A DNA stretch of 64,000 nucleotides from Alkalibacillus salilacus (GTDB taxonomy: Bacteria > Bacillota > Bacilli > Bacillales > Alkalibacillaceae). The stretch is from NCBI RefSeq assembly GCF_030812915.1, contig NZ_JAUSTQ010000005.1, forward strand, positions 62,001 through 126,000, given 5' to 3'. The notes under the pieces were generated by a model. The model was given only the letters and a program-made list of their open reading frames with translations. It ran no database searches and was not told the origin of the DNA. The translations under genes and the position numbers were made by a program. Positions 19,812-35,537 of this stretch are shown one piece after another (position 1 is the first letter of the stretch; each line of letters begins with the position of its first letter).

Positions 19812-20502
19812 CGCTGTCTTCCTTTCTCGTTATTTTCACATCAGCATGAATATACCCCTCTTTTAAACTCGCCCGCTCAAATTCAAATAACAAATCTTCT
19901 GTTTCTAAATAGGCTCGCGGATAAGAAGTTGCATCTAACATCCTTATGTGGTCAAAGGCTCTTTCTAATGTGTCGATTTTCTTTAAATTACCTTCTGTTC
20001 TTTTTCGTCTTGAAAAAGAAACCACTTCCCCGACTTGTTCATAAGGTGTAGGTTCTGTTTCGATTATTTCCTGAATCATTTGCTCGATCGTTTGTGCTGC
20101 TCTCATGTAGATTTCTTCAGCTGATCCATATAAACTTAAATCCTTTTTTAAATAAATCGGCCCAGCATCTATCTCTGCTTCACAACGTATAGCCGTTAGT
20201 CTTGTTTCGTAAATGCCTCGACTGATTAAGTTCTGCAACGGGGTCCCACCTCTTCCGTAGGGTAAATCAGTCATATGAAAGACAATACATTCAAAGTTCT
20301 CATACACCTCTTGAGGAATGATGAATGACCAATGAGGGATAAAAATATAGCAAGGATTAATGGTAGATAAATAGTCGTATGTTAACGATTCCCGATTAGA
20401 TATATAATACACTTGATGGTCTAAAGTATTGGTTAAATTCTCGTAAACCTGACGATACCAGTCATGATTCGCAACAATAACGATTTTAACTTCGATCACC
20501 AC
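19804..20502 (-). CDS. Sugar N-formyltransferase-like protein
   Basis: A 232-residue protein with the formyltransferase core. FHMTDLPYGRGGTPLQNLI corresponds to the HxSLLPxxRG...P loop that holds the catalytic His, and EIDAGPIYLK gives the catalytic Asp. The usual Asn two residues before the His is a Val here. The N-terminal region is a Rossmann-like formyl-folate domain. Relatives formylate amino groups of nucleotide sugars. In this operon the substrate is probably a pseudaminic acid intermediate. It starts at a GTG that overlaps its own ribosome site, so the exact start is uncertain. Confidence 0.75.
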   Translation of the reverse strand: MVIEVKIVIVANHDWYRQVYENLTNTLDHQVYYISNRESLTYDYLSTINPCYIFIPHWSFIIPQEVYENFECIVFHMTDLPYGRGGTPLQNLISRGIYETRLTAIRCEAEIDAGPIYLKKDLSLYGSAEEIYMRAAQTIEQMIQEIIETEPTPYEQVGEVVSFSRRKRTEGNLKKIDTLERAFDHIRMLDATSYPRAYLETEDLLFEFERASLKEGYIHADVKITRKEDSDE

Positions 20503-20505
20503 CTA

Positions 20506-20964
20506 TTAATCTAATAATTCTTTATAAAATTCTATATGCGTATCATACTCATCCGACCTAAAATTCGCTTTATTAAAGGCCTTAATCGACGCTTTATTTT
20601 GATATTTAACCTTTCCAACTAGTTTACTAATCGGTAAATCGTATTGATGAACGATGCCTGATAAATGCTTGATTAATTCGCTACCATAACCACGGCCACG
20701 ATAGGCATGGTCTATACTATAATCAATGACACCTACGCCTTGTTCTATATCGATTCTTAGTTGACCGATTGGCTGATCGTATCGATATACCATAAATATT
20801 TTATGATCCGCTGATTTCAGTTTATTCTTAAACCATTCTTGATGGTCACTGTAGTTAATTTTATTAGAATCAAATGCGTTATTTCGGACACTTTCCTCAT
20901 TGGCCCAAGTATATAATTGCTCACAATCAGACTCATTTGCTTCCCTGATATAAAAATCTTCCAC
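20506..20964 (-). CDS. pseH: UDP-4-amino-4,6-dideoxy-AltNAc N-acetyltransferase (PseH)
   Basis: A 152-residue GNAT acetyltransferase. The acetyl-CoA loop YRGRGYGSELIKHL lies at about 93-106, and the N-terminal IREANESDCEQLYTWANEESVR resembles PseH, which acetylates the 4-amino group made by PseC. The GTG at 20964 is preferred because GAGGTG is six bases before it. It lies between pseG and the formyltransferase. The pathway role rests on a complete set of neighbours. Confidence 0.85.
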   Translation of the reverse strand: MEDFYIREANESDCEQLYTWANEESVRNNAFDSNKINYSDHQEWFKNKLKSADHKIFMVYRYDQPIGQLRIDIEQGVGVIDYSIDHAYRGRGYGSELIKHLSGIVHQYDLPISKLVGKVKYQNKASIKAFNKANFRSDEYDTHIEFYKELLD

Positions 20965-21045
20965 TCTAAACACCTCTATTCACTCAACAACTAAGTTACT
21001 TAATAAGTGATATTGGAAATCAACAAAGCTAATAGTGAAACCATA

Positions 21046-22011
21046 TTAATCTTGACCACCGTTTATTAGTAATTGAATAACTCGTTTGGACCCGTTACCA
21101 TCAATCAAACCACTCAGTTCATCTGATAATTTTTGCCTTTCTTGATAAGATAAGAGTCTTTCAAATTGTTTTAGCACATCTTGATAGAACATTGGCGAAT
21201 CTATACGAATGACTTTCTCATTTAACCCGCCATTAATTAAACTCGCTACATTATTTTGTTGATTATCGGCGGTTGCTATAGGAATGAATGGTGTTTGTGT
21301 CCGAATGACCTCTAATAAGGTTTGACCTGCTGCTGTGATCACAATATCTGCCTGCATGATCTGCTCCAGCATATCGTCAGGACCAATTTGATCTAATCGA
21401 TGGATATGAGTTTGATTGAGGCTTTCAACTGATTCATCACCAGCTAATAACACATAGAAATGAATGTAAGGGTATTTACCTGCCAAACTTTTCATTAATG
21501 CTTGCGTTGACTGATTTCCTGCACTTCCTAGAGTTATAAAAACCCGTTCAACATCTTGGTTAATCGTTTTGTGCCTTGTTTCGGTTAATGGCTTTCTTAA
21601 AATGATATAGTCTCTACCACTATAATAATGGCTTCTAGACTCTGATGCCTCTAGTGACAAATTCACCACCATCGCGTTACCTGGATAATCGATTCGATTG
21701 AGATCATCTAAAATCAAACAATGACCCGCTTGTTGTACTAATTGCTCACAAACCGTTTTACTAACCAAATAAGAATCCACGATCAGATTATGATAATCCT
21801 TGATCTTATTTTGAATAAAACTAAAGTTGCACCAGTCTACATATTGGACATCAACTTGCTCTAACAGCTTAATAGATTCATCTGAGGTATTCACAATAAA
21901 TTCAACCTCATAACCTTGGGCCACCGCTTCATCATAAAGCGCTTTACAACGTGCGATATGACCTAATCCAATATTAGATCCACCTTCTGTTAAAATAATA
22001 ATCGACTTCAC
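21046..22011 (-). CDS. pseG: UDP-2,4-diacetamido-trideoxy-altropyranose hydrolase
   Basis: A 321-residue GT-B fold hydrolase that releases UDP to give 6-deoxy-AltdiNAc. The N-terminal EGGSNIGLGHIARC contains the catalytic histidine (His18 from this start). The nucleotide-binding half has TLGSAGNQST and ITAAGQTLLEVIRTQTP, as in PseG and MurG-like proteins. A GTG at 22011 gives the usual MKSIIIL opening, and an in-frame GTG nine bases earlier is possible. It lies just after pseF. Confidence 0.9.
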   Translation of the reverse strand: MKSIIILTEGGSNIGLGHIARCKALYDEAVAQGYEVEFIVNTSDESIKLLEQVDVQYVDWCNFSFIQNKIKDYHNLIVDSYLVSKTVCEQLVQQAGHCLILDDLNRIDYPGNAMVVNLSLEASESRSHYYSGRDYIILRKPLTETRHKTINQDVERVFITLGSAGNQSTQALMKSLAGKYPYIHFYVLLAGDESVESLNQTHIHRLDQIGPDDMLEQIMQADIVITAAGQTLLEVIRTQTPFIPIATADNQQNNVASLINGGLNEKVIRIDSPMFYQDVLKQFERLLSYQERQKLSDELSGLIDGNGSKRVIQLLINGGQD

Positions 22012-22024
22012 TTTAAACACAGCC

Positions 22025-22762
22025 TTAATCCGTTATATTTTTCTGGTCAATGTTACTATTAACCTTGGCAATATGAGGATGTTGATGTAATAGCATCATA
22101 ATCTCATCTAAATAAAAATCATGTTCACCATGATATAAATAATCGTATATTAACTGAATAACTTCAAAATCTTCTGGAGTATCAAGTGTAAGGCGAAAGT
22201 GGGATAAATCAACATCTAACTGATAGAACGCAACATCATGTCGTTCTTCGTAAATATAGGGGGTAACATGTTCTTTTTGGTAGGTTTCAAGACTAAGTCG
22301 ATTAGTTGCTTGCAATAGATCATTTGAGAAGACTTCGACATCGAACCCTCTGGGGTAAGTTCGTTTCTCTTCATAGGGTGGTGCATTAGTAACTAACGGA
22401 ACAGAGTGATTTTGATAATACTCAATCAAATCATCTAAAACATGGGGATCAATCAATGGACAATCAGATGTAATCCTGACCACCGTGTCTAATTGAAATG
22501 TATGCGCCGCTTCAGCATAACGATTTAACACATTTTGTTCTGAACCACGAAAAATCGAAGCATTCAAATCTTTGACCTCACTTACAATGGCATCATCTTC
22601 TACTAAATCGGTTGTAGCGACAATCACCTCATCAACGAGGTTCGCTTGATTAACACGCTCCAACACATGGGCTAACACTGATTGCCCTTTTAGATTTTTT
22701 AACACTTTGCCTGGCAACCGTGTAGAACCCATCCTAGCTTGAATAATAACGCCAACTCTCAT
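22025..22762 (-). CDS. pseF: Pseudaminic acid cytidylyltransferase
   Basis: A 245-residue nucleotidyltransferase of the SpsF/CMP-sugar group. The signature IIQARMGSTRLPGKVL is at the N-terminus, followed by VVRITSDCPLIDP with the metal-binding Asp. It activates pseudaminic acid with CTP before glycosyl transfer. A longer frame reaches into pseC, but the ATG at 22762 with AGGGGT upstream gives the family's normal start, seven bases after the pseC stop. Confidence 0.88.
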   Translation of the reverse strand: MRVGVIIQARMGSTRLPGKVLKNLKGQSVLAHVLERVNQANLVDEVIVATTDLVEDDAIVSEVKDLNASIFRGSEQNVLNRYAEAAHTFQLDTVVRITSDCPLIDPHVLDDLIEYYQNHSVPLVTNAPPYEEKRTYPRGFDVEVFSNDLLQATNRLSLETYQKEHVTPYIYEERHDVAFYQLDVDLSHFRLTLDTPEDFEVIQLIYDYLYHGEHDFYLDEIMMLLHQHPHIAKVNSNIDQKNITD

Positions 22763-22769
22763 CTTACCC

Positions 22770-23942
22770 CTACTTTCTAAACGATTGAATGACGTGCTCA
22801 ACAATCTGAATAACATCTTGAACGTCACCGTCTGTCATAGCAGGAAATAACGGCAATGTAATAATCGATTCATATAAGGATTCAGTAACAGGATATTCCC
22901 CTTTTCGGTAGCCCATTTGTTGATAAAACGGCTGCATATGCACGGGAATATAGTGAACGTTCACGCCAATATTGTGAGCTCTTAAAGCGTTAAAAATGGC
23001 TTCTCTTGTGCCTGTTAAGTTCGCTAAGTTTAATTGAATGACATATAAATGCCAGCTCGATGACACATCATGATGCACAAAAGGTGTTACGATTTCTGCT
23101 ACATCTTGAAAAGCCCCATCATACATAGCTACAATTTCGCGACGTCTTTTGATAAAATCATCTAACTTCGATAATTGGCTCAATCCAAGGGCTGCTTGAA
23201 TATCTGTCATACGATAGTTATAGCCTAAAAACTGCATTTCATAGTACCAAGGGCCGTGATACTCTTCCATCTCATCTTGGTCACGCGTCACCCCGTGAGA
23301 TCGAAACTGTTTTAATTGTTGATAATACGTTTCATCATTGGTTGTAATCATCCCGCCTTCACCTGTTGTAATATGTTTAACAGGGTGAAAGCTGAACATT
23401 GTCATATCAGACAAACCACCGATTTTCTCACCTTTGTAAGTAGCTCCAATGGCGTGAGCTGCATCTTCGATCACGATCAAATCATGTTTATCTGCAATAG
23501 CACGAATCGCATCTAGATTAGCAGGTTGACCTGTAAAATGGACTGGGATTATGGCTTTGGTGTTTTTCGTAATACGTTTTTCCAATTCATGAGGATCAAT
23601 ATTATAAGTTTTAGGATCAATATCTGCGAAAATAGGTGTCCCTTTTTGATATAAAACACAATTAGCCGAAGCTATAAATGTCATGGGTGACGTCATCACT
23701 TCATCGCCTTCACCAATCCCAGCGACAAAACATGCCGCATGTAGGGCCGCTGTCCCGCTTGAAAATGAAACAGCATATTTCGCTCCCACTTTATTCGCAA
23801 GAGCTTCTTCAAACGCATCTACTTTAGGTCCTGTTGTTAAGAAATCACTTTTCAAAACATCTACCACTTGTTCTATATCATTGAGACTAAGACTTTGTTT
23901 GCCATAGGGTAACAATCTATCTCTCTTTGGATCATGAACCAT
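22770..23942 (-). CDS. pseC: UDP-4-keto-6-deoxy-AltNAc aminotransferase
   Basis: A 390-residue DegT/DnrJ/EryC1-type PLP aminotransferase. LLPYGKQSLSLNDIEQVV and SDFLTTGPKVDAFE are the typical PseC opening. SSGTAALHAACF binds the cofactor phosphate, IEDAAHAIGATYKG supplies the Asp that contacts PLP, and the Schiff-base lysine is in FHPVKHITTGEGG. The ATG at 23942 is favoured over the GTG nine bases upstream. It makes the 4-amino sugar used by PseH. Confidence 0.9.
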   Translation of the reverse strand: MVHDPKRDRLLPYGKQSLSLNDIEQVVDVLKSDFLTTGPKVDAFEEALANKVGAKYAVSFSSGTAALHAACFVAGIGEGDEVMTSPMTFIASANCVLYQKGTPIFADIDPKTYNIDPHELEKRITKNTKAIIPVHFTGQPANLDAIRAIADKHDLIVIEDAAHAIGATYKGEKIGGLSDMTMFSFHPVKHITTGEGGMITTNDETYYQQLKQFRSHGVTRDQDEMEEYHGPWYYEMQFLGYNYRMTDIQAALGLSQLSKLDDFIKRRREIVAMYDGAFQDVAEIVTPFVHHDVSSSWHLYVIQLNLANLTGTREAIFNALRAHNIGVNVHYIPVHMQPFYQQMGYRKGEYPVTESLYESIITLPLFPAMTDGDVQDVIQIVEHVIQSFRK

Positions 23943-24031
23943 CCTCTTCACCTTCTTATTTTGTTAAAAAATTGAACAACTTCAACTTGATGATGCCAAT
24001 CAAATTTTATTTAAAATTGGGATTGTTAAAT

Positions 24032-24976
24032 TTAGATCAGATTAGTAGATTGAATCCAACTTTCCGTCTTTTTAATACCTTCTTTTAAGCTGTATGACGG
24101 ATTCCAATCAAGCAATCTCTTAGCTTTTTGGTAATCGCACACTAACCTAGGGATCTCACTTTGAGGATGAATATGTTGAATATGCTTAATACGACTTTGA
24201 TCATCCACGATTAACTCAGCTAATTTATTAATGCTGATATCTTCACCCAGTCCTGCATTCACAATTTCGCCGTTCACTTGATCTGTGTAACCAGCTTTTA
24301 CAATAAACCGAGCACAGTCTTCCACGAAAAGTAAATCTCTCGTTTGATTGCCACTGCCATAAATATTGACCGGCTGACCTGCCAATTTATTTTTCAGAAA
24401 AATGGCGACTACGCCACCTTCTCCTCCCGTTTTCTGATAAGGTCCATAGGTATTAAATGGCCGTATTACGGTAATGGGCAACCCATAGCTATGATAGTAA
24501 GATAAGCACATATTTTCCGCCGCAAGTTTTGAACCTGCATAAGGGGAAGCTGGTTTCGCTGGATTTTTTTCACTGATCCCCTCTGATCCATCAGCTTGTT
24601 GATAGACCATACACGTACTCATAAATACCATCTTAACGCTATGGATTCTGCACTGCTCGAGCACATTAAAGGTTCCGATTACATCGTTTTCAAATGTGGT
24701 TTTAGGGTCATCAATACTATCCTGGACATTAATACTTGCCGCCAGATGAAAGCAAATATCAAACTTTTGATTAAACAATAGATTCAATATATGCTGATCT
24801 TTAATGTCTCCGACGACTAAGTCCATAAAATTCTTATCTTGATAAAAAGTTTCTAGGTTTTCTCTTCTACCATTTGATAGATCATCTAACACCCACACCT
24901 GGTGGTTATCCTTCAATAACTGGTCGACGACCCATCTCCCAATGAACCCTGCACCACCTGTCACAAGAATTTTCAA
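24032..24976 (-). CDS. NAD-dependent sugar epimerase/dehydratase (SDR)
   Basis: A 314-residue extended SDR protein. LVTGGAGFIGRWVVD binds NAD. The active site is TCMVYQQADG with YAGSKLAAE (Tyr-x3-Lys), and IRPFNTYGPYQ follows. The overall pattern resembles UDP-glucose/GlcNAc 4-epimerases of surface polysaccharide clusters. It starts at a TTG eight bases after AAGGAGG. Its sugar is unknown, and it may make a partner sugar linked to pseudaminic acid. Confidence 0.85.
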   Translation of the reverse strand: MKILVTGGAGFIGRWVVDQLLKDNHQVWVLDDLSNGRRENLETFYQDKNFMDLVVGDIKDQHILNLLFNQKFDICFHLAASINVQDSIDDPKTTFENDVIGTFNVLEQCRIHSVKMVFMSTCMVYQQADGSEGISEKNPAKPASPYAGSKLAAENMCLSYYHSYGLPITVIRPFNTYGPYQKTGGEGGVVAIFLKNKLAGQPVNIYGSGNQTRDLLFVEDCARFIVKAGYTDQVNGEIVNAGLGEDISINKLAELIVDDQSRIKHIQHIHPQSEIPRLVCDYQKAKRLLDWNPSYSLKEGIKKTESWIQSTNLI

Positions 24977-25042
24977 TACGACTCCCTCCTTTCTAGACGA
25001 ACACATATTAAGTCACACAGACCCTAATCCTTCAAAGAATAG

Positions 25043-25636
25043 TTAGACCTTTTTAAAAACTCTGATTGTATATGCCTGTAATCCAACGTTTTTTCCGCAT
25101 TTACCTTCTTCAATTTGTTTAAACCCTAACTCTTCAAAGATCTCTTTATAATTTCTAGGGAAAATTCTCCAATGTTCAGATTTTTCAGCTTCAATTGTCA
25201 TAAGATAAGCATCAGTAATTCTTGCGATTTCCTTGAAAATCCACTCGCTATCTGGATGAATATGCTCTAAGACTGCCATTGTGAATACTAAATCGTATTG
25301 ATTAGTAGGAAGCTCTTCAATTATGTTCTCAACTGAAGAGTGAATGATTTCACCATGATCGATTAAGTGAGGATGATACTTCTTAAGTTGATTAATCGCT
25401 TCCTCACTTATTTCGATTCCTGTCAATTTTTTGTAATTATTCTCGTAAAGATAATTCAAATTTCTACCTAGATTGCATCCAATCTCTAATACTTGCTTAC
25501 TCTCATCGATATATTTATTGATATGGTTATATAGAAGCTCGCTTCTTCCACTGTGTCTTAAATAATGTTCTGGCAAGCTTTCATTCTTCCAATAATCATG
25601 GATTTCTTCCAATGATCTCTTATCTTCTTCATCCAT
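25043..25636 (-). CDS. Class I SAM-dependent methyltransferase
   Basis: A 197-residue protein with the SAM motif VLEIGCNLGRNLNYL (about 45-59), an acidic ribose-binding EIS after KKLTGIEIS, and LVFTMAVLEHIHPDSEWIF as the post-I motifs. In an operon for an unusual sugar it probably methylates a sugar or glycan end, but the acceptor is not readable. It starts nine bases after AAAGGAG and lies between the epimerase and glycosyltransferase genes. Confidence 0.82.
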   Translation of the reverse strand: MDEEDKRSLEEIHDYWKNESLPEHYLRHSGRSELLYNHINKYIDESKQVLEIGCNLGRNLNYLYENNYKKLTGIEISEEAINQLKKYHPHLIDHGEIIHSSVENIIEELPTNQYDLVFTMAVLEHIHPDSEWIFKEIARITDAYLMTIEAEKSEHWRIFPRNYKEIFEELGFKQIEEGKCGKNVGLQAYTIRVFKKV

Positions 25637-25672
25637 CTCATCTTTCTCCTTTTGATTTAAAACATTCTTATA

Positions 25673-27079
25673 TCAAGTTGATAATTTGTGAATTAAATCG
25701 TACAATCGCTCACTAGATAAGCCTATATCTGGATAAGCATACGAAATAAACTTATCCCTTCTTTCATCTACTTCTTGGCTCCATTTTGGGTCATTAATAA
25801 ATTTAATAATTAGTGCTGCTAACTTTTCAGGATCTTTTTGCACTAACTCACCCAAACGATCAAAGTAACCTGTATAGCTTAATAATTTATTTTGCATAAT
25901 GAACACGGGTTTATTGACCAACATAGCCTCTAACCCTACAGTCGATGGGTATGAAACCACACAATCCACGTGAAGAAGTGTTTCATATAAATCATATGAC
26001 CCAGCCGATTGAATAAACGGGAATCTTCTTTCTAGTTCATGGGTATCTGTATTCGGAAAATCTTTTAATACTATATTCCATTCGAATTCTTTTGAAGCTG
26101 AAATCGTTTCTAGCAGCGTTTCCCATTTGCTAATATTGCGCTCACCTCTAACCACGACAAGTAGTGTTTTCTTGTTATGATCCAATCCTAGACTTTTATC
26201 AAAAGTAACGCGTGATATGGGCCTTGGCTGAAATGCCTGATCAAATCTGGGATGCCCTGTAATCTCAAGCGCTTCTTCTTTCACCCCTAAAGCCTTATAC
26301 CAATCCACTTCATACTGACCGTAAACAGCATCTATATTAGCAATCTTCGGAATATAACCAAATTCATTACCGATGATCCCATGTTGCGTACAAATGGTCG
26401 GAATACCACGTTTTGCTGCTACAAACGTCACGACACGACTGAAATGGTTCGGACTCGAAATCACGATGCAAGAAGTAGGAATATCCTTTAGGATGTTGTT
26501 GCAAATTTCAATTTGATTAATGACAGTGGACATTCTATTAAAAAGATTTTTTTGGAATTCAGGCTTTTGATATAAGTGGTGATCTTTATAGCTTTCCAAC
26601 AACTTCTTCACCTGAAGTCTCATATGAATTGTAGCCGCATTCACATTGGGCAAATAATCATTAACATAATGTACGGGCATATTGAGTGAAGAATCTTGCG
26701 GCGACTTTTTATGGTTCGTTTTTACGACGACTGTTTTGGAAGGATTGAAGTAATTGTTTAATATCTCCGGTGGAATGCGAAGTAACTGGTCATCAATGAA
26801 GAGTACTTTATTTGATTTATTTGCGTTTCCGGTTTCTTTTCGCTGTGAGTGTATATATTGGTCGAATAACTGTTGAACTTCTGACTGATCATCAATTCTT
26901 CTCGTTAGTTTTTTTGCAAAAGTATCCTTATCTAATTGTCGCCAGATTTCTGGATTATTCCGAATCAAAGCTGGAAAATGAACAAGATAAGACAATGAAA
27001 AACCGTTATATGTGATGCTTTCAAAGTCACGTATAAACTCAAGATATAACGACCAATAATTTTGGACATACGTATTCAT
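25673..27079 (-). CDS. Putative GT-B glycosyltransferase, paralog 1
   Basis: A 468-residue protein opening MNTYVQNYWSLYLEF. Its C-terminal half has the two-domain GT-B look of capsule and CDP-glycerol transferases: TQHGIIGNEFGYIPK, ITGHPRFDQAF, then VVSYPSTVGLEAMLVNKPVF near residue 390. It shares the whole layout with the next gene upstream, so the two arose by tandem duplication. Both are good candidates for adding pseudaminic acid or its partner sugar to a target. No signal peptide is seen. ATG at 27079 is chosen because AAAGGTGG precedes it. Confidence 0.72.
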   Translation of the reverse strand: MNTYVQNYWSLYLEFIRDFESITYNGFSLSYLVHFPALIRNNPEIWRQLDKDTFAKKLTRRIDDQSEVQQLFDQYIHSQRKETGNANKSNKVLFIDDQLLRIPPEILNNYFNPSKTVVVKTNHKKSPQDSSLNMPVHYVNDYLPNVNAATIHMRLQVKKLLESYKDHHLYQKPEFQKNLFNRMSTVINQIEICNNILKDIPTSCIVISSPNHFSRVVTFVAAKRGIPTICTQHGIIGNEFGYIPKIANIDAVYGQYEVDWYKALGVKEEALEITGHPRFDQAFQPRPISRVTFDKSLGLDHNKKTLLVVVRGERNISKWETLLETISASKEFEWNIVLKDFPNTDTHELERRFPFIQSAGSYDLYETLLHVDCVVSYPSTVGLEAMLVNKPVFIMQNKLLSYTGYFDRLGELVQKDPEKLAALIIKFINDPKWSQEVDERRDKFISYAYPDIGLSSERLYDLIHKLST

Positions 27080-27095
27080 GGTATCCACCTTTAAA

Positions 27096-28607
27096 TTATT
27101 TTCTTGTTAACCTAGCAACAGATCGTTTCAACCTCTGACCAGAGTTGCTCATATCAGGGTATGCGATACGAAGGAATTTCTGCCTTTTCCTAGAAGCATA
27201 TGCTTTAAATTCTGAATCGGTAAAATACTTCATGATCACTTCACCTAATTGTTTGGGATCACTTTTAACTAACTGACCCAATGCTTGAAAATAGCCAGAA
27301 TAACCATCAAAGTTACGATTTAGAATAAACACCGGTTTGTTTGCGATACTCGCTTCCAAAGCAACCGTAGACGTGTATGAAATAACTGTGTCAACGTGAG
27401 GAAAAATGTCGTAAATAGAATAATCGGCTGTCGATTGTACGAAAGAAAACTCTTTTGTTAACTTATGGGGTTTCTTACTGGGATAGTTTTTTATAATGAT
27501 ATTTAAATTAAGCTTTTTGATCGTTTGGATAAGCTTTCTCCACCGATTAATATCTTCATTATTTCTAATGACAATCAATAAGGTTCGTTTGTTATTATTT
27601 AAACCTAGGCGTCGATTAAATTGTGACCGTTTAGTTGTTAGTCTTCCAAATGCCTGATCAAACCTAGGGTGACCAATGATCTCTATTGAGGATCGCGGCA
27701 CCCCTAACTGGTTATACCATTTCACTTCATAGTTACCATACACAGCATCTATTGTCGCTATTTTAGGAATGTATCCGAATTCACTTGCTATAATGCCATG
27801 TTGCATACAAATTGATGGAATGCCTTTAGTGGCAGCGACGACAGCTAATATTCTATTAATATAAGAATGTGTAGTTGAAACAATCACACAGGAGATCGGC
27901 CTTTCACTCAGAAAATGTTTAGCCTGCTCAATTCGTTCAACTATCGCAGCGATCATATTCAAAAAGTACAGCTGAAAACTCTTGTTTTGGTATAAAGGAT
28001 GGTTTTTATGAGCTGCAAAAATTTCTCGAGCCCTATTTTGTAAATGGACGACAGCTTTTTTAGTATTAATGGAGTAATCACTTAAGTAATCGGTGTTGAG
28101 GTTTTGTTGGGATTGAGTACTTGAAACGGTTTGTTTGGGTGGTTTTATCTTCTTAATATGATTACCAGAGCTTAAGTTAACTTTATTGGATCCTTTTTTC
28201 TTATTAGAGCGTTTTTTAATTTGATTCGGTCTTCTTATATTGGCTTGTAGCATAATCGTTCGGGATGGGTGAAAATACTTTAATATGGTAGGTCTTGAGA
28301 TTCTTAATAATTTGTCGTTGTGGAATGCGACTAATCCATTTTCTTTTTTTACTTGTAATTTCCGCCTATGTTGGGCCATGAATTGATCAAAGACTTCTTG
28401 TATTTCTTTATGTTCGTTCACTTGGCTTCTTAAATGTTTATGGAATTTTTCACTCGATAACTGCTTCCATAGTGCTGGATTCTTGCTGACTTGACTATAA
28501 AAGTTACAAAACAAATATGATATTGAATACCCATCATATTTCAGATTTTCGAAATCGTTTAGAAAATCCATATATAAAGACCAATAATTTCTTGTCAGAG
28601 TATTCAT
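27096..28607 (-). CDS. Putative GT-B glycosyltransferase, paralog 2
   Basis: A 503-residue paralog of the following gene, with the same opening (MNTLTRNYWSLYMDF), the same core (MQHGIIASEFGYIPK, EIIGHPRFDQAF) and the nucleotide-end motif TVALEASIANKPVFI. It differs by a lysine- and asparagine-rich insert of about 40 residues (about 130-175, with KKRSNKKKGSNK), which looks disordered. ATG at 28607 follows GAGGAGG at ideal spacing, and an upstream ATG overlapping pseB lacks one. It probably uses a different acceptor or linkage from its twin. Confidence 0.72.
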   Translation of the reverse strand: MNTLTRNYWSLYMDFLNDFENLKYDGYSISYLFCNFYSQVSKNPALWKQLSSEKFHKHLRSQVNEHKEIQEVFDQFMAQHRRKLQVKKENGLVAFHNDKLLRISRPTILKYFHPSRTIMLQANIRRPNQIKKRSNKKKGSNKVNLSSGNHIKKIKPPKQTVSSTQSQQNLNTDYLSDYSINTKKAVVHLQNRAREIFAAHKNHPLYQNKSFQLYFLNMIAAIVERIEQAKHFLSERPISCVIVSTTHSYINRILAVVAATKGIPSICMQHGIIASEFGYIPKIATIDAVYGNYEVKWYNQLGVPRSSIEIIGHPRFDQAFGRLTTKRSQFNRRLGLNNNKRTLLIVIRNNEDINRWRKLIQTIKKLNLNIIIKNYPSKKPHKLTKEFSFVQSTADYSIYDIFPHVDTVISYTSTVALEASIANKPVFILNRNFDGYSGYFQALGQLVKSDPKQLGEVIMKYFTDSEFKAYASRKRQKFLRIAYPDMSNSGQRLKRSVARLTRK

Positions 28608-28626
28608 GATAGCCTCCTCACTTTGA

Positions 28627-29634
28627 TCAGACATTTAGAAACTTCGCTTTTTTTAACAATGAGCGGAGTTCTTCATGATTTAAGGGTTGCTGACGCTCAG
28701 ATGTATAAGTTCCATTCACAACTTCCTTCGTATCAGGATAAATCACATCACTTGATCGTTTAGGTATAATATACATCTCAGACATTTCTCTCGCGTAAGT
28801 GGATTCTTCATATGACATTAACTCTTCAAACATCTTTTCACCTGGCCTTACCCCTATTGATTCAATATCTATTTCTGATTGGTTGAGGTTATATTGATTA
28901 GCGATTTCGTCTATTAAAACATCGACTAAGTCACCTAATTTAATCACAGGCATTTTCAATACGAAAATTTCTCCACCTTTTGCTTCTTGTAATGCCTTAA
29001 TCGTTAATTCTGTTGCCTGATCTGGCGTCATCATGAAACGTGTCATATCTAAATCAGTGACTTTGATTTTCTTTTCCTTCAGTATTTGTTTCTTAAAAAG
29101 CGGAATCACAGAACCTCTGGAACCCATCACATTACCAAACCGAACACTAGAAAAGATAGTTTGGTTTTCGGTTCGATTGAGTTCAGTAGCCGAAATCATC
29201 CGCTCACCGATCAACTTAGTTGCACCATACGTATTAGGAGGAGAAATAGCTTTATCTGAGCTTGTGAAAATCACTCTTCTTACCTGGTGGTCAAGAGCCA
29301 CACGAATGACGTTATTAGTGCCCTGAATATTAGTCTTAACCGCTTCAGCTGGGTTATGTTCACATGAATCCACTCGCTTCATTGCAGCTAAATGAAACAC
29401 ATAATCAATACCTTCCATAGCTGTTGCAACACTGTCATAATCCCTAACATCACCAATAATGAAATTCAGAACATGGTTGAAACCCATCTCTTCCTGGAAT
29501 TGTTGCTGCTTAAACTCATCGCGACTAAATATATAAATAGAATCTGGATTTTCCTTAATTAGATGACTGACTATACTCTTCCCTATTGTTCCAGTGCCAC
29601 CAGTAATAAGAACTTTTTTTCCTTCAAAAAACAC
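28627..29634 (-). CDS. pseB: UDP-GlcNAc 4,6-dehydratase, inverting
   Basis: A 335-residue SDR enzyme of the PseB/FlaA1 group, first step of pseudaminic acid synthesis. VLITGGTGTIGKSIV binds NADP, FTSSDKAISPPNTYGATK holds the catalytic Asp-Lys pair and the Tyr-x3-Lys, and GVRPGEKMFEELMS is a conserved C-terminal block. The GTG start has AAAGGAGG before it. It is the first gene of the operon. Separate confirmation from close dehydratases (CapD-like) would need alignment, but the other five Pse enzymes downstream fit. Confidence 0.9.
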   Translation of the reverse strand: MFFEGKKVLITGGTGTIGKSIVSHLIKENPDSIYIFSRDEFKQQQFQEEMGFNHVLNFIIGDVRDYDSVATAMEGIDYVFHLAAMKRVDSCEHNPAEAVKTNIQGTNNVIRVALDHQVRRVIFTSSDKAISPPNTYGATKLIGERMISATELNRTENQTIFSSVRFGNVMGSRGSVIPLFKKQILKEKKIKVTDLDMTRFMMTPDQATELTIKALQEAKGGEIFVLKMPVIKLGDLVDVLIDEIANQYNLNQSEIDIESIGVRPGEKMFEELMSYEESTYAREMSEMYIIPKRSSDVIYPDTKEVVNGTYTSERQQPLNHEELRSLLKKAKFLNV

Positions 29635-29902: not shown

Positions 29903-29929
29903 ACACGCATGTCACGAATTCATAGCTTA
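29903..29929 (+). promoter_or_regulatory. SigmaK-type promoter of the 147-residue coiled-coil gene
   Basis: AC at 29903-29904, 16 bases, then CATAGCTTA at 29921-29929 matches the SigmaK pattern AC-N16/17-CATANNNTA. It lies 54 bases before the start codon. The rest of the 29635-29982 gap shows no gene. SigmaK acts in the mother cell late in sporulation. Confidence 0.6.
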
Positions 29930-29982: not shown

Positions 29983-30426
29983 ATGGATGAAAAGAATTAT
30001 GAAGAAGAACATACACATACAGAGCAAGAAGATGAATCCATTTCAGCATCCATCAATAATCTGAAGCATGATGTTGATTCAATTAAAGAAGAAGTTGGGA
30101 AAATGCAAATTCAAAAACTGCTCTCCAAGATGTACCAAATGATGGAACAAATTGACGATCAACTTAAGAAATTAGAAGAGGAAATCATTTTACAGAAATC
30201 AAATAATCAAAAATCAGAGGAAACTACGAATGCAACGCCTAATCAACCTAAGCCACGGATGTCTGAGTACAAAATGTTACAAAACATGTTGCAATCCTCT
30301 GGTTCTGCGGGGACACCCACAAATCAAAGAAACAGCAACTTAACAAGAAATCGCGCAAATAGCGGCCACCCCTCAAACCCCAATATGCTTAATAAAAATA
30401 TCATTACTCGTAAATCTACAAGATAG
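29983..30426 (+). CDS. Coiled-coil protein with RMSEY motif (147 aa)
   Basis: Not a recognised family. Residues 20-75 are strongly heptad-like (INNLKHDVDSIKEEVGKM and ILQKSN), suggesting a coiled coil. Then comes block A, PKPRMSEYKMLQNMLQS (89-105), an Asn/Ser/Thr-rich linker, and block B, LNKNIITRKSTR, at the very end. Blocks A and B recur in the protein at 33202. There is no signal peptide. It is divergent from the pse operon and follows a SigmaK-like promoter, so it may be a spore-coat or outer-layer protein. That function is inference. Confidence 0.7.
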   Translation: MDEKNYEEEHTHTEQEDESISASINNLKHDVDSIKEEVGKMQIQKLLSKMYQMMEQIDDQLKKLEEEIILQKSNNQKSEETTNATPNQPKPRMSEYKMLQNMLQSSGSAGTPTNQRNSNLTRNRANSGHPSNPNMLNKNIITRKSTR

Positions 30427-30625
30427 CACCCTATCATTATAGACTACTAAATAGTCCCAAACGTTTTCCCATTCTCCGCGTTCACTATACTAACTAGATA
30501 AACAGTTAAGAAGATCAACTAAATTAACCCTCATAAAATCACCTATTTTCATAGATTGACTCTAGTTGCCCAAACGTTTTTCATATTTTAGCTTATAATA
30601 TAGTATTCAGAAAGGAGATGATGTT

Positions 30626-30766
30626 TTGAAAGCGCGGGACATTAGCAAGAACTCAAATAACGCAACATCTTCAAATGAAAAGAAGCCTATAACACTCGAA
30701 ACGCCACCTGGTCAGCAGAATCGAATTACGTTTGGAGGTTGTGGTTGCGGTAAAAACAAAGGTTAA
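30626..30766 (+). CDS. Small peptide with GGCGCG tail (46 aa)
   Basis: A short gene starting at TTG, eight bases after AAAGGAG; the two ATG codons in between hit a stop at once. The peptide is polar and Asn/Ser-rich, contains PITLETPPGQQNRITF and ends GGCGCGKNKG, so it has two cysteines near its C-terminus. A strong ribosome site and a CATATTTTA (30582-30590, SigmaK-like -10) support it as real. No family is recognised. The cysteines could cross-link or bind metal in a spore layer. Confidence 0.55.
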   Translation: MKARDISKNSNNATSSNEKKPITLETPPGQQNRITFGGCGCGKNKG

Positions 30767-30822
30767 TGCCTTTTAAGAGATTTGTTATTAGCAAAATGTA
30801 TTAGATCAAGTTAAGACCTATT

Positions 30823-30868
30823 AAAAAATGTCATAATGACTCAGTTACTTCGAGTCATTATGACATTT
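30823..30868 (-). terminator. Terminator after the surface carbohydrate gene
   Basis: A 14-bp perfect stem TGTCATAATGACTC / GAGTCATTATGACA followed by TTTTTT on the minus strand, 20 bases after the stop codon. It may also stop the plus-strand small gene. Confidence 0.9.
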
Positions 30869-30887
30869 AACTAATGAAAAACCGATT

Positions 30888-32162
30888 CTAGACAACAGTA
30901 CCGTTAAGCCTGAATAAGTTATTGGCTATTGGGACGATGTTTACAGTCTTGCTTTCTTCTTCGATCTCATCTAATTTACTAAAGAATGCTTTAATTTCTG
31001 ATTCAGTTAATGAAAAACGTCGCTTTTTTTCTTTTTTACTTTTTTTAAGTAGTGAATGTTGATCGATCGAATGCCGCTGTTGACTTTGATTAGGGTGAAT
31101 TTTAGGGAAAGTATCCATTAATCTTAAGATAGATTCATAGGCATACTGATTATCGTACCACTCACAATGATATAGCATGAGATCTGAATTGAGTTCGTTT
31201 TTAAATGGGACATACTTCTTGTGATTTAAATTAACCACATTATTTATTATTTCTAGCACTTCATCTACTTGAGAGGTTTTCATACCTAATTGGTTAGGTA
31301 AGCTTTGATCCTTCTTTGAGGAGACTGCAGGAACATATGAAATAACATGCTTACCAAGTAAATAGGCTTCAAGACCTGATGTACAGCCGTTGTGTATAAT
31401 CACTTTAGCAGCCAATATCCATTTAGTAATATTACCTTCGTGAATCACATGAACATTGCGATATCTTGAAAACTCTTGCAAGTATGATCTGATATTCTCA
31501 CCTGGATGCGGCCGAATCACAAAATTGATACCTGGAAATCGTTCACATGAGTGTTTGATTAAATCGATAAAGTGATAGTATAACTGTTTTATTTCTTTAA
31601 AATGCGGATCATCCTTTTTACCCTTAGCTGTATTATAACGTGCAAATCGTGTATTGATTAAAACAAACTCACCAAACTGCCTTTTAATTTGTTCAGCTTC
31701 TTCTTGATAAATTGTACTGAATTTAGGCTTTAATAAATCAAGTCTTGGATTTCCAGTAACATAGCATCTATCCTTCAAATCAGGATATGCACTTGTCATG
31801 ACGTCCATTTGGGATTGTCCCCAACAATATTCTTGTGTGACTAATGCCAGCATCTCTTTCTCCATGCGATCTCGCAAATACTTATGGTCGTCAAAAATCA
31901 ACCCTTCTTCATCCAGTTCGACAACCTTATGACCATAACTCGTCGCATCTGTAATCACCCTTTTTCTAACACCGCGAGAATAACCTTTTGAGAAGAAAAT
32001 ACCTTGTGGTAATTGATGAGACGCCTTTTGTACCATATAGTGATCGCCAATCACGACTTCATATCCTTTTTTCGCTGCATAATAAGCTAACAGTAGTTTG
32101 GAATCAGACTCTCTTACTTTTATCTCAATCGGTAAGTATAACCAATTCTTAATTTTATTCAA
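30888..32162 (-). CDS. Surface carbohydrate biosynthesis protein, GT-B-like
   Basis: A 424-residue protein that begins with LYLPIEIKVRESDSKLLLAY, the usual opening of a family annotated as surface carbohydrate biosynthesis protein. The C-terminal half resembles Kdo/CDP-glycerol type transferases, with VTGNPRLDLL, FVIRPHPGEN and HNGCTSGLEAYLLGKHVISY. The last 90 residues hold a Lys-rich stretch and a helical tail. The TTG at 32162 has GAGAGG upstream, while a TTG 27 bases earlier does not. It lies away from the pse operon but would serve the same surface glycan. Confidence 0.75.
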   Translation of the reverse strand: MNKIKNWLYLPIEIKVRESDSKLLLAYYAAKKGYEVVIGDHYMVQKASHQLPQGIFFSKGYSRGVRKRVITDATSYGHKVVELDEEGLIFDDHKYLRDRMEKEMLALVTQEYCWGQSQMDVMTSAYPDLKDRCYVTGNPRLDLLKPKFSTIYQEEAEQIKRQFGEFVLINTRFARYNTAKGKKDDPHFKEIKQLYYHFIDLIKHSCERFPGINFVIRPHPGENIRSYLQEFSRYRNVHVIHEGNITKWILAAKVIIHNGCTSGLEAYLLGKHVISYVPAVSSKKDQSLPNQLGMKTSQVDEVLEIINNVVNLNHKKYVPFKNELNSDLMLYHCEWYDNQYAYESILRLMDTFPKIHPNQSQQRHSIDQHSLLKKSKKEKKRRFSLTESEIKAFFSKLDEIEEESKTVNIVPIANNLFRLNGTVV

Positions 32163-32207
32163 AGTTATACAACCTCTCTTCTTCAGCAATCAAACAATTG
32201 ACAGAAA

Positions 32208-32236
32208 TAAAAGAGAGGAGTGAGGTCCTCTCTTTA
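32208..32236 (-). terminator. Terminator after the beta-rich surface protein gene
   Basis: Stem AAAGAGAGGA / TCCTCTCTTT with a 6-base loop and TATTT after it on the minus strand. Confidence 0.8.
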
Positions 32237-32252
32237 TTCTTAGATTAAAATG

Positions 32253-32939
32253 TTACCCTTCTCCACCGTTGTCTCCATTACCATTTGGAAACACGACAGG
32301 GCATTGTGGTGGGATGGTTGGTGCTGGGCACGGTGGGAACGGAAGGATATCTCTTGGCTGACAGAAATCTGCTGTAATTTCTAGTGTGACATCATAAGTG
32401 GATTGGATACTTTGACATAAGCGGACAGAAACCGTTACATCTAGTTCATCTACTTCAGTCGTTGTTCCAGTATCACAAGTTGCTGTACAAACGAAGCAAT
32501 CTAAATCCGTATAAGTGACATCAACATCTGTACCCTCTGGTGCACAAAGAATGACTTGCTCACAACGCGTGAACTCAGCGGAACCGACTTCGACCGTTGC
32601 TCCCCCAAGACCAGGAATTAAATCGACGAAAATCGTTACTTCGAAGTTTTTACGGATATTAACCAGTTGTAATGTGACCTCTGCTCCATCTACTACAAAA
32701 TCTTGATCAACTCTATCCAATACGACAATTGGATCTTCTTCGGTAGGCGCGACTGTACATGTAACGGAATCTAGATCAATATCATCACATTCCAATTGTT
32801 CACCGGTCATAGGGTTTAATGGTAAATCTAAATCACTTAAACTTAGGTCGAAATTAGCTTCATTTAGTATCCAGTCATAAACTTTCTCTGTATTAATACA
32901 AAGAAGCTCCTGTCCCCCAGTTAGATTATTAGCTTGCAT
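32253..32939 (-). CDS. Acidic, Cys-containing beta-rich protein (228 aa), probably spore surface
   Basis: No family named with confidence. The N-terminus LLCINTEKVYDWILNE has the VYDW pattern found in some Bacillaceae surface or spore proteins. The body is a run of short hydrophobic/acidic strands (DVDVTYTDLDCFVC, VTVSVRLCQS, YDVTLEITADFC), very rich in Asp, Val and Thr, with paired cysteines. It ends in a proline tail (PFPPCPAPTIPPQCP) and GNGDNGGEG. There is no signal peptide. A SigmaK-type promoter lies just upstream, so an outer spore layer is the best guess. Confidence 0.65.
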   Translation of the reverse strand: MQANNLTGGQELLCINTEKVYDWILNEANFDLSLSDLDLPLNPMTGEQLECDDIDLDSVTCTVAPTEEDPIVVLDRVDQDFVVDGAEVTLQLVNIRKNFEVTIFVDLIPGLGGATVEVGSAEFTRCEQVILCAPEGTDVDVTYTDLDCFVCTATCDTGTTTEVDELDVTVSVRLCQSIQSTYDVTLEITADFCQPRDILPFPPCPAPTIPPQCPVVFPNGNGDNGGEG

Positions 32940-32975
32940 ATTATTGACACCTCCAAAATATTTGATTTCACTTTT

Positions 32976-33002
32976 AATCTATGTCCATAGAGATAAGCGC
33001 GT
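32976..33002 (-). promoter_or_regulatory. SigmaK-type promoter of the beta-rich protein gene
   Basis: On the minus strand AC (33001-33002), 16 bases, then CATAGATTA (32976-32984) fits the SigmaK pattern, with the same spacing as the site at 29903. Confidence 0.6.
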
Positions 33003-33201
33003 TAATGAAATAGCGGAGTTACAAGGATATTTAAGAAGTTGGTTGAATATAATACACAAATAGTAATAATCTAATCACTCATCTAGTTTCGAATGTTAAA
33101 AGTACAAATACACCAACAATTTAAACCTTTTAACCATGACTTTTTCACAATTAAGCGCGTATTCAATAATATATTAATATGTAACCAAAGGGTGACACTT
33201 A

Positions 33202-34161
33202 GTGGATCAGTACAAATTATATGACACATCAGAAATTGAACAATTAAAACATGAGCTCCAAACCTACAAACAATCACTTGAATACTCAGGTCCCCATGAT
33301 TCATTAAACTATTTTGTCCACTTAAAGCGCGAATTACATGACATGCAACTAGAATTATCGAGATTTAAAGGAGAAGTGAACATCATGAAGGAAGATTTTC
33401 AAAAGAAGATTGAAGACTATGAAAAACAAAACGAAAATCAGTCTTTACAAATTCAATCTATAGCTAATTCACTTAATCAGTTACAGCATGACCTTACATC
33501 TATTAATCAAAACAATTATCAGACTCAAGTAACTGACCTGCTTGATAAGATGGAAAAAACAATCAACAGAACAGAGAAAAATAGAGCTACACTAAAGGAC
33601 CTTAGGCATAAATCTAGCAAGGAACATGCAAACTCAATAGAACATGAAGCAACTAAAACCAAACCTAGAATGTCTGAATATAGAAGAGTCCAAAATATGT
33701 TGCAATCTATTCATCAAGCGAATCCACAGAACACAAATACCTCAACTTATACTAACCAAAAATTCAGCCAAAACAAATCATTTCATAACAATAGAAAGGC
33801 ATCCAGTACTACTAACCAACCAAAATCCTCTAAAACCAACCATCTCGAATTTAATAAGAATGTTATTACCAAAGTGACAAAGCCTGAAAATAATATTCAA
33901 TCAGAACCTTCAACAAACCAGCAACAGCCTGATGCCAACGATAAAAAATTACCTAATCAAAAACAAAATCAGGAGATAAATCATCCATCTGAGAATACGA
34001 ATTCAACAAATCAGCAGATTGATCAAAAATCAACAAAGGATGATTCAATTAATTCCACCCATACTGAAAATGAGCACGAAACAAAATCACGGCTTAATCG
34101 CCCTAAGAATAAAAGAAACCTCAGCTCACTCTGGGCATTCATTGTTGAAAAATTAAGGTGA
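33202..34161 (+). CDS. Coiled-coil protein with RMSEY motif (319 aa)
   Basis: Not a recognised family. Residues 10-25 and 40-135 are coiled-coil-like, then block A, TKPRMSEYRRVQNMLQS (153-169), and an Asn/Gln/Ser/Thr-rich disordered stretch containing block B, FNKNVITKVTK (217-227). Both blocks are shared with the 147-residue protein at 29983, although the rest is diverged. The tail ends RRPKNK-like and then LSSLWAFIVEKLR, an amphipathic segment. A GTG start follows AAAGGGTG. The JAMM protease gene begins seven bases after it, so they are co-transcribed. Confidence 0.68.
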   Translation: MDQYKLYDTSEIEQLKHELQTYKQSLEYSGPHDSLNYFVHLKRELHDMQLELSRFKGEVNIMKEDFQKKIEDYEKQNENQSLQIQSIANSLNQLQHDLTSINQNNYQTQVTDLLDKMEKTINRTEKNRATLKDLRHKSSKEHANSIEHEATKTKPRMSEYRRVQNMLQSIHQANPQNTNTSTYTNQKFSQNKSFHNNRKASSTTNQPKSSKTNHLEFNKNVITKVTKPENNIQSEPSTNQQQPDANDKKLPNQKQNQEINHPSENTNSTNQQIDQKSTKDDSINSTHTENEHETKSRLNRPKNKRNLSSLWAFIVEKLR

Positions 34162-34168
34162 TTAAAAG

Positions 34169-34579
34169 ATGAAGCAAAAACAACTTATCTTACCCCAAAC
34201 AATCTACAATCAAATAGTGGAAGATTGTAGAAATAACCTACCATATGAATCTTGCGGTCTAGTTACTGGACTTGATCACCGGGTTAATAAATTTTGGCCA
34301 TTAGATAATGAGCTGAAATCAACCAAGCGATACTTTGTTAGTAAACAGTCATTAGAGGCCGTGATGAATGAAATCACGCAATCTGGCGAACAGGTGCTAG
34401 CGATTTACCATACCCACCCTGTCACAGCTCCTGTTCCCTCTTCTTTTGATTTGAAGAACCATCCTGATCATTCCGTTTATATGATGATTATTTCCTTTAA
34501 GTTGGAGTCTCCAATGTGCAAGTTATATTCGGTTGAAAATAATCGTTATTTAGAATGTGACATCACATTCGCAACTTAA
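34169..34579 (+). CDS. JAMM/JAB (M67-type) metalloprotease
   Basis: A 136-residue MPN+ protein. The zinc motif is complete: Glu27 in PYESCGLV, His81 and His83 in YHTHP, Ser91 and Asp94, giving H-x-H-x7-S-x2-D. Such single-domain JAMM proteins are isopeptidases or peptidases. Bacterial ones often process a neighbouring protein or a ubiquitin-like sulfur carrier. No ubiquitin-like or E1-like gene is nearby, and the partner seems to be the coiled-coil protein encoded directly upstream. The substrate is not known. Confidence 0.88.
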   Translation: MKQKQLILPQTIYNQIVEDCRNNLPYESCGLVTGLDHRVNKFWPLDNELKSTKRYFVSKQSLEAVMNEITQSGEQVLAIYHTHPVTAPVPSSFDLKNHPDHSVYMMIISFKLESPMCKLYSVENNRYLECDITFAT

Positions 34580-34649
34580 TAAGACATGCAAGTGATATTT
34601 TGGTACAAGGAGTCGATAATATCATGGTTCTTCTTAGCATAGAAATGAG

Positions 34650-34658
34650 CATAAGTTA
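34650..34658 (+). promoter_or_regulatory. SigmaK-like -10 element before the 183-residue gene
   Basis: GCATAAGTTA fits the CATANNNTA consensus and lies 30 bases before the start codon. No AC is found at the right distance, so this is weaker than the two complete sites nearby. Confidence 0.35.
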
Positions 34659-34688
34659 AATACTGACCCTTTTTCAGGAGTGAACACC

Positions 34689-35240
34689 ATGACCAATATG
34701 AGTGAGTTAAAGAAAAGAATTGGAGAACTGAACAATCAAACGGATCGCTTTGTTGAGGAGTTTAAGGAATATTTGCAAGCTCATCAGACACCCGACCAAC
34801 AAAATCCTCCGTTCATAAGTTATTTCACACACTCAATTAATGCAGCAACTGACTTCCAAGATGAAAATTTATTATTTGGCGGATTTCATATTAAAAACCT
34901 CAGTTCAGCTACAATAGAAGACCTGTACATATGTTTACGCATTGATACTTCCGATCCATTCAACTTTTCGGGAAAGTTCAATAATGATCCTTCTTCTATA
35001 AATGCTCAAGCAATACTAGCTACTTGGGAACGATTCAACCATAGTGACGATGACAAGGAACATTGGTTCAAACTAGGCCAAGGTCATTATTTAAAACCTT
35101 TTGATGATGTCTCATTATCTGATTTCCAGATCACTTGGGAAAATCATGTACCATTTTCTTGTTCAATCACAGGCTTTGTATACACTGAATCAGAAAGTGA
35201 TGGTAAGACTTCTCTTAACACTATTAATATAAGAATGTAG
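34689..35240 (+). CDS. Hypothetical protein (183 aa), helix plus beta domain
   Basis: No family recognised. A helical N-terminus (MSELKKRIGELNNQTDRFV) precedes a beta-rich domain of about 120 residues with LLFGGFHIKNLSSATIEDLY, a WFKLGQGHYLKPFDDVSL stretch and ITWENHVPFSCSITGFVY. It has no signal peptide or membrane helix. ATG at 34689 is preferred to a GTG nine bases upstream, since AGGAG then has proper spacing. It is followed after 18 bases by another small gene of the same unit. Confidence 0.62.
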   Translation: MTNMSELKKRIGELNNQTDRFVEEFKEYLQAHQTPDQQNPPFISYFTHSINAATDFQDENLLFGGFHIKNLSSATIEDLYICLRIDTSDPFNFSGKFNNDPSSINAQAILATWERFNHSDDDKEHWFKLGQGHYLKPFDDVSLSDFQITWENHVPFSCSITGFVYTESESDGKTSLNTINIRM

Positions 35241-35258
35241 AGACAAGGAGGGCTTTAG

Positions 35259-35537
35259 TTGGTTGATGAAAAATTTTGGTCGCTTACCTATAAGATGGTG
35301 AACGATTATGTCTCTCATATCGATGAACATGGAACAAATGATGAGAAACTGGAATATTCCATCTTACTTCTGTTACTCAAATTAAAAACACAGACTATTA
35401 ACAGTTCAGAAGATCACCATTTGAACATGCCAGGTGAATCATCCAGCGAACTTCTAAAAGAAATAGATAAAACAATCGAACACAATCAAGATCAATTTGA
35501 TCATTTACTCGAGTTTGTCACGAACTCTGAATCCTAG
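35259..35537 (+). CDS. Hypothetical small protein (92 aa)
   Basis: A soluble, acidic, helical protein: MVDEKFWSLTYKMVNDYVSH, then LEYSILLLLLKLKTQT and a charged helix ending LEFVTNSES. It starts at TTG after AAGGAGGG, ends before a strong terminator and is the last gene of the plus-strand group. No function can be assigned. Confidence 0.6.
   Translation: MVDEKFWSLTYKMVNDYVSHIDEHGTNDEKLEYSILLLLLKLKTQTINSSEDHHLNMPGESSSELLKEIDKTIEHNQDQFDHLLEFVTNSES

Follow-up and report, generated by a model that had tools for sequence, protein, structure and literature searches.

In a window of 64,000 nucleotides from Alkalibacillus salilacus (contig NZ_JAUSTQ010000005.1, positions 62,001 to 126,000), positions 29,983 to 35,537 carry a compact locus. 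It encodes two coiled-coil proteins, a tiny peptide with a cysteine-containing tail (Cys-tail peptide), a surface carbohydrate biosynthesis protein, a BMQ_0737-family spore coat protein, a JAMM metalloprotease, a protein here called BETA and a small protein 3' of it (Table 1). The host genome (2.73 Mb) has CotE and CotO, as expected for a spore former. In many genera, genes for BMQ_0737, BETA, the GC(G)C-tail peptide, the coil and the JAMM protein lie clustered, and sigmaK-type promoters precede those for BMQ_0737 and the coils. From the sequence evidence set out below, we propose, with a probability of roughly 0.6, that the locus is a sigmaK-type module for the outermost spore layer, assembled around the BMQ_0737-family protein and comprising coil proteins recruited by a shared motif (block A), the Cys-tail peptide and an accessory JAMM protease. 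An earlier note, made from the sequence alone, had picked out blocks A and B in the same order in both coil proteins, a complete JAMM gene seven bases after the larger coil gene, the GGCGCG peptide and an adjoining pseudaminic acid operon, and all of these stand on re-reading. The gene calls are mechanical open reading frames (ORFs), and several peptides, tails and neighbors were judged by eye.

Table 1. Coordinates of the locus features within the window
Feature	Position	Strand	Basis or remark
SigmaK-type promoter of short coil gene, AC-N16-CATAGCTTA	29903..29929	+	motif match
Short coiled-coil protein, 147 aa, block A; block B near C-terminus	29983..30426	+	paralogue of 33202
Block A of short paralogue, flanks included	30244..30315	+	profile match
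Tiny basic peptide, 46 aa, TTG start, tail GGCGCGKNKG	30626..30766	+	GC(G)C-tail family member
Surface carbohydrate biosynthesis protein (TIGR04396)	30888..32189	-	359 bits vs cut-off 125
BMQ_0737-family morphogenetic spore coat protein, 228 aa	32253..32939	-	NF052457, E 1.3e-63
SigmaK-type promoter of BMQ_0737-family gene, AC-N17-CATAGATTA	32975..33002	-	motif match
Relaxed sigmaK-type promoter of long coil gene, AC-N16-AATAATATA	33147..33173	+	relaxed motif, read in sequence
Long coiled-coil protein, 319 aa, GTG start, blocks A and B, aromatic/basic C-terminal tail	33202..34161	+	
Block A of long paralogue, flanks included	33655..33726	+	profile match
JAMM (M67, Prok-JAB) metalloprotease, 136 aa, full catalytic set	34169..34579	+	PF14464, E 2.2e-15
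BETA protein, N-terminal helix and Ig-like beta sandwich in model, conserved BMQ_0737 partner	34680..35240	+	
Small protein, 92 aa, 3' of BETA	35259..35537	+	likely counterpart of relatives' 102-109 aa ORF

A role of the locus at the spore surface, as the earlier note had supposed, is well supported because the gene at 32253 encodes a member of the BMQ_0737 family of morphogenetic spore coat proteins: the product matches NF052457 with 214.8 bits against a cut-off of 71 and spans the entire model (positions 1-199 of 199). The eponymous protein of Bacillus megaterium QM B1551 belongs to the same family, and according to a report on that species its GFP fusion is among the outermost or outer-coat spore proteins and an antibody binds at the surface (PMC4656864). 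The family is found in 191 of 397 genomes of the order. The predicted structure of the window's member has a pLDDT of 80 and a pTM of 0.68, the other four models made for the locus having pLDDT values of 62-68. In several genera, BMQ_0737 and BETA genes lie near FabI, DUF1360 or CotO (L163, L171, L175, L177, L181, L182), these neighbors being confirmed by Pfam in L177, L181 and L182 and by eye in the others.

The association with the JAMM gene was assessed in 52 fetched regions and the window, of which one (L074) yielded no JAMM ORF, leaving 52 of 53 sources. Of the 52 loci, 51 have a BMQ_0737-like gene (by BLAST cluster) within 5 kb of the JAMM gene, and 36 have a BETA-like one. Profile matches in 18 named Bacillaceae loci give a comparable picture (BMQ_0737 16/18, BETA 17/18, coil 15/18); seven of these 18 duplicate contigs of the 52-region set and were excluded from the 63-locus counts used below. 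At 41 M67 loci from outside Bacillota all three are absent (0/41 each), and the JAMM gene itself was recovered as an ORF in 23 of them. Genome-wide, BMQ_0737 genes occur in 53 of 55 JAMM-bearing genomes and in 138 of the 342 without JAMM (Fisher p 1e-16), with the proviso that the genomes are related, some of the loci come from one genus and the samples are not independent. The two JAMM genomes lacking the coat gene are G001 and G179, and in the latter the JAMM match is marginal (E 9.9e-4). BETA gave no family above cut-off in Pfam or NCBIfam. Its model has a helix and, after it, an Ig-like beta sandwich, and no function was read from the fold because many structural matches are tied at Z ~10. 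The small protein 3' of BETA is equated by place and by eye with the ORF of 102-109 aa beside BETA in relatives; a single open frame holds BETA together with this small protein in Gracilibacillus boraciitolerans (L108:5119-6015).

The promoters point in the same direction once position is taken into account. The exact motif AC-N15-17-CATANNNTA occurs seven times in the window against 7.8 +- 2.4 expected; since the count matches expectation, the motif alone proves nothing, and the whole-window count was discarded as evidence. Two exact copies lie directly upstream of the genes at 29983 and 32939(-), and together with one relaxed site they make up the sites of the sigmaK promoter consensus that we recognize here as candidate regulon promoters. 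The relaxed form, AC-N15-17-[CA]ATANNNTA within 150 bp upstream, in which the C-to-A relaxation was chosen after viewing long-coil upstream regions, precedes 68/87 BMQ_0737 genes, 31/54 JAMM-upstream ORFs, 9/12 short coils and 3/3 further long coils; it precedes 1/63 JAMM genes, 0/52 BETA genes and 32/530 other ORFs. With the strict motif the counts are 63/87 for BMQ_0737, 7/12 for short coils, 0/3 for the further long coils and 17/530 for other ORFs. It is this position-specific enrichment upstream of homologues that substantiates the sigmaK-type promoters first suspected from the single locus. The relaxed-motif distribution fits an arrangement in which transcripts begin at the BMQ_0737 and coil genes, and JAMM and BETA are later genes of operons. 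Separately, a palindrome-like element, GCACAT...ATGTGC around TTGATG/TTGGTG-TTT-CATCAA/CACCAA, was seen by eye over the -10 region in long-coil 5' regions of Aquibacillus- and Gracilibacillus-type loci (L100, L104, L105, L107, L160).

The two coil proteins carry block A (KPRMSEYKMLQNMLQS in the short one, KPRMSEYRRVQNMLQS in the long one), followed by block B (NKNIITR and NKNVITK, respectively). They had been described as otherwise diverged, a description that does not hold: BLASTP aligns them over 159 columns that extend from the coil to block B and include block A, with 50 identities (31%) and E 2e-13. Judged by this alignment they are paralogues and not unrelated carriers of a motif. Neither gave a match to CotO (PF14153) among Pfam matches up to E 1, and the host genome's CotO gene lies on another contig than the locus. 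A block A profile (24 positions, 16 sequences, all from JAMM loci; genome matches taken at E<0.001) finds just two places in the host genome even at E<=10, with E 1.7e-12 and 1.4e-11, and other genera have block A too, in coil proteins of both the long and the short type. The sharing of the motif by the two proteins is therefore not attributable to chance, given its uniqueness in its own genome and its recurrence elsewhere.

Across the order, block A is found in 14 of 397 genomes, with four further genomes matching at E 0.001-0.01, all in short or broken frames. Every one of the 14 has a BMQ_0737 gene, which lies about 2 kb or less from block A in 13; in the remaining one, G346, the distance is about 17 kb on the same contig if that contig is circular. 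JAMM genes accompany block A in 11 of the 14. The earlier proposal had asked whether carriers always have a JAMM gene nearby and had held that the motif in unrelated, non-sporulating contexts without one would count against it: most carriers do have the gene, three (G050, G078, G346) lack it by both profile search and inspection of fetched stretches, and these still hold the motif beside the spore-coat gene. The Gracilibacillus genome G078 is the most telling, as it retains both block A paralogues, two BMQ_0737 genes, BETA, the TIGR04396 gene and a PseB-like gene, with a Cys-tail peptide adjoining the short coil. Since a profile built from JAMM loci leans toward JAMM carriers, the JAMM-less cases weigh more than their number suggests. 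We conclude that block A tracks the BMQ_0737 layer, because it occurs with BMQ_0737 in all 14 genomes and has carriers devoid of JAMM, and that it is a plausible candidate for a docking motif of that layer. That block A might instead be cut or recognized by the JAMM enzyme was suggested by the JAMM gene standing directly after a block A protein in the window and several genera, and by its presence in 11 of the 14 genomes. This now appears quite improbable, and as a cleavage site block A was rejected: there are the JAMM-less carriers, including the one with both paralogues; JAMM does not directly follow the short paralogue; and many JAMM genes follow proteins lacking block A, with FNPxKY-like or SFLSLNK-like tails instead. 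A second common stretch, (Q)LQQKIIHYRSE-like, was noticed by eye at the start of BETA proteins, of divergent coils and of some JAMM-upstream coils (L164-L183); from its recurrence, shared short motifs may be common in these coat proteins.

The JAMM protein, whose ATG is at 34169, matches PF14464 with 57 bits against a gathering score of 25, and its catalytic set (E27, H81, H83, S91 and D94, in an HxHx7SxxD arrangement) is invariant in 18 aligned proteins. The nearest named relative's protein, that of Alkalibacillus almallahensis, is 88% identical. The JAMM profile finds 55 of the 397 genomes, in 27 of 136 genera, and one distant match in a plasmid collection. In 46 of 52 JAMM loci, a non-BMQ_0737 ORF of 151-971 aa, coiled-coil by eye, lies upstream on the same strand within 600 bp, and in 20 of these 46 the gap, with mechanical starts, is below 20 bp or negative. 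In some loci the upstream protein has no block A and a different C-terminal end. Tails are FNPxKY-like in 19/63 loci and SFLSLNK-like in 3/63, frequencies that are circular insofar as the classes were defined after seeing JAMM loci; nine of the 63 had no upstream ORF, L102 among them being an artefact whose coil was detected otherwise. Elsewhere, such tails end 6/204 ORFs of JAMM-lacking loci, one of them a coil of the same family (L160), and 1/429 control ORFs. The JAMM protein and its upstream coil thus look like an accessory pair. Known JAMM families are isopeptidases, and as the locus encodes a surface layer, the enzyme might remove isopeptide cross-links on the spore surface during assembly, as quality control or for release, instead of processing one partner. 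No cross-linking enzyme was recognized by eye in the recurrent neighborhood, and we regard this as rather unlikely. Among the papers that the literature searches listed, none deals with a spore-coat JAMM protease.

The Cys-tail peptide bears on the choice of substrate. Tiny basic peptides ending in GC(G)C or GGCC(G/L/M)K were observed beside BMQ_0737 and JAMM genes in L079-L098, L164-L181 and other loci. They form an unannotated, widespread family near these genes, with or without JAMM; NCBIfam has no family for the five members tested, and Pfam none for the window member, which adjoins the short coil as in Gracilibacillus loci. A same-strand member lies within 800 bp in 46 of 63 JAMM loci, and none on the other strand, against a chance expectation of 0.018 per locus and 1 of 23 controls; the definition, fixed after seeing members, misses real ones, and reading by eye extends the peptide to more JAMM loci. 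A looser filter alone recovers the Gracilibacillus forms in L048 and L160 and a peptide in L162; of the four JAMM-lacking stretches outside L164-L183, L161 and L163 yielded none, L160 and L162 one each. The association in 46 of 63 loci made the peptide look a strong candidate for a JAMM-specific substrate, which was dropped since 17 of 20 JAMM-lacking BMQ_0737 loci (L164-L183; by eye anywhere in 13 kb, chance matches set aside; the coat gene of L168 not re-found by the ORF step) also carry it. The same count argues against an enzyme of the Mec+ or desampylase kind that cuts after glycine in the peptide's Gly-Cys tail or strips a small modifier from coat proteins. The attraction of that idea lies in the frequent GG-C tail, the 46 of 63 loci and the best solved-structure matches of the JAMM model, namely the uncharacterized protein 2kks and JAMM1 (5lda, 5ld9), the latter an archaeal enzyme of desampylase type. 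The residue before the first cysteine is also D, N, T, R or K, and no modifier or activating enzyme was recognized by eye among recurrent neighbor clusters. The protein scores 40.3 bits against a cut-off of 130 for archaeal desampylase (NF041370) and 13.4 against 200 for CBASS Cap3 (NF050170). CysO and cysteine synthase, the Mec+ partners, were not recognized by eye among recurrent neighbors within 5 kb, no genome-wide CysO search having been made. We hold a Mec+- or desampylase-like role to be unlikely.

The surroundings of the locus raise the further question whether surface-glycan clustering alone has brought these genes together. The minus strand from 18058 to 29634, up to the short coil gene and on the far side of the 30888-32189 gene, holds a pseudaminic acid biosynthesis operon, in which PseI and PseC exceed the model cut-offs and the matches to PseB, PseG and PseH fall short of them. 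Its sugar, which the earlier note supposed to decorate a spore outer layer, may be connected to the locus proteins; the link is one of adjacency. Glycan-type genes are common neighbors in other genomes too (clusters 3, 5, 7 and 13), but they vary from locus to locus while BMQ_0737, BETA and the peptide persist, and the sigmaK-type promoters are enriched before the module genes; an assemblage without a single functional module is thus very improbable. An Rfam scan returned nothing but a tRNA.

Framed as a functional unit, the locus would be a module of genes expressed late, in the mother cell and under sigmaK, to build the outermost spore layer. The layer itself would be formed by BMQ_0737 and BETA, and block A, as a short amphipathic helix, would bring the coil proteins to it. 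Through its two cysteines, the Cys-tail peptide may cross-link or order this cysteine-rich layer. The accessory JAMM protease, apparently co-transcribed with its coil partner, would act at a late stage of assembly by trimming or releasing one of the layer proteins, most likely that partner and at a site outside block A; its substrate is the weakest step of the mechanism. Besides the non-independence of the genomes, several observations weigh against this proposal. The JAMM gene is frame-broken in two of six genomes of the genus, being in those two either dispensable or misassembled, and one of them, G001, has no BMQ_0737 match at all. The ORF upstream of JAMM is BMQ_0737-like in 4/52 loci and was not found in 2/52, and the strict promoter motif precedes just 8 of 54 JAMM-upstream ORFs. 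The model of the BMQ_0737-family protein has no match in the PDB at E<=0.001, with TM <=0.23 among the 50 matches listed. Virgibacillus senegalensis and Sediminibacillus halophilus (L112, L113) each have JAMM, BETA and two Cys-tail peptides, and their 8 kb flanks contain no BMQ_0737 gene. By eye, the breaks in L094 (G001) and L095 (G005) lie near the HxH active-site region, and the upstream coil stays open.

Outer spore-layer gene clusters are familiar from the cotO-cotZYXWV crust locus of B. subtilis and from the exosporium genes beside fabI in B. cereus. The present locus is likewise such a cluster, and some JAMM-less relatives have FabI, DUF1360 or CotO near BMQ_0737 as those loci do; its structural proteins are different ones, and its coil proteins do not match CotO. 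Mec+, the archaeal desampylases (JAMM1) and the Cap3/Bil deubiquitinase-like enzymes have the JAMM domain and catalytic motif in common with the window's protein, which is set apart by its spore-coat neighborhood, by the lack of any recognized modifier system, and by scores that do not reach the curated desampylase and Cap3 cut-offs. The JAMM proteins of phage lambda-type tails may offer a likeness, in that a JAMM domain serves the assembly of a structural shell. Within the partial texts of the BMQ_0737 studies (PMC4656864, PMC4674009) there is no mention of BETA, the Cys-tail peptide, block A coils or JAMM.

More tentatively, the spores of many Bacillales might be finished by an undescribed system in which GC(G)C peptides hold the cysteine-rich BMQ_0737 layer together as a disulfide glue or serve it as a redox catalyst of CGC type, the block A helix plugs coil proteins into it and, in about a quarter of these genomes, a JAMM protease, of a class that is not known from spore coats, processes the assembled layer. 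Beyond the B. subtilis and B. cereus groups, little is known of the spore outer layers of Bacillales. The analysis defines a testable gene set around BMQ_0737 with a conserved candidate docking motif, block A, adds a metalloprotease class for which the searches made gave no spore-coat report, and points out an unannotated peptide family. Together they reveal hitherto undescribed features of the way in which many bacteria of soils and salt lakes probably assemble their spore coats.

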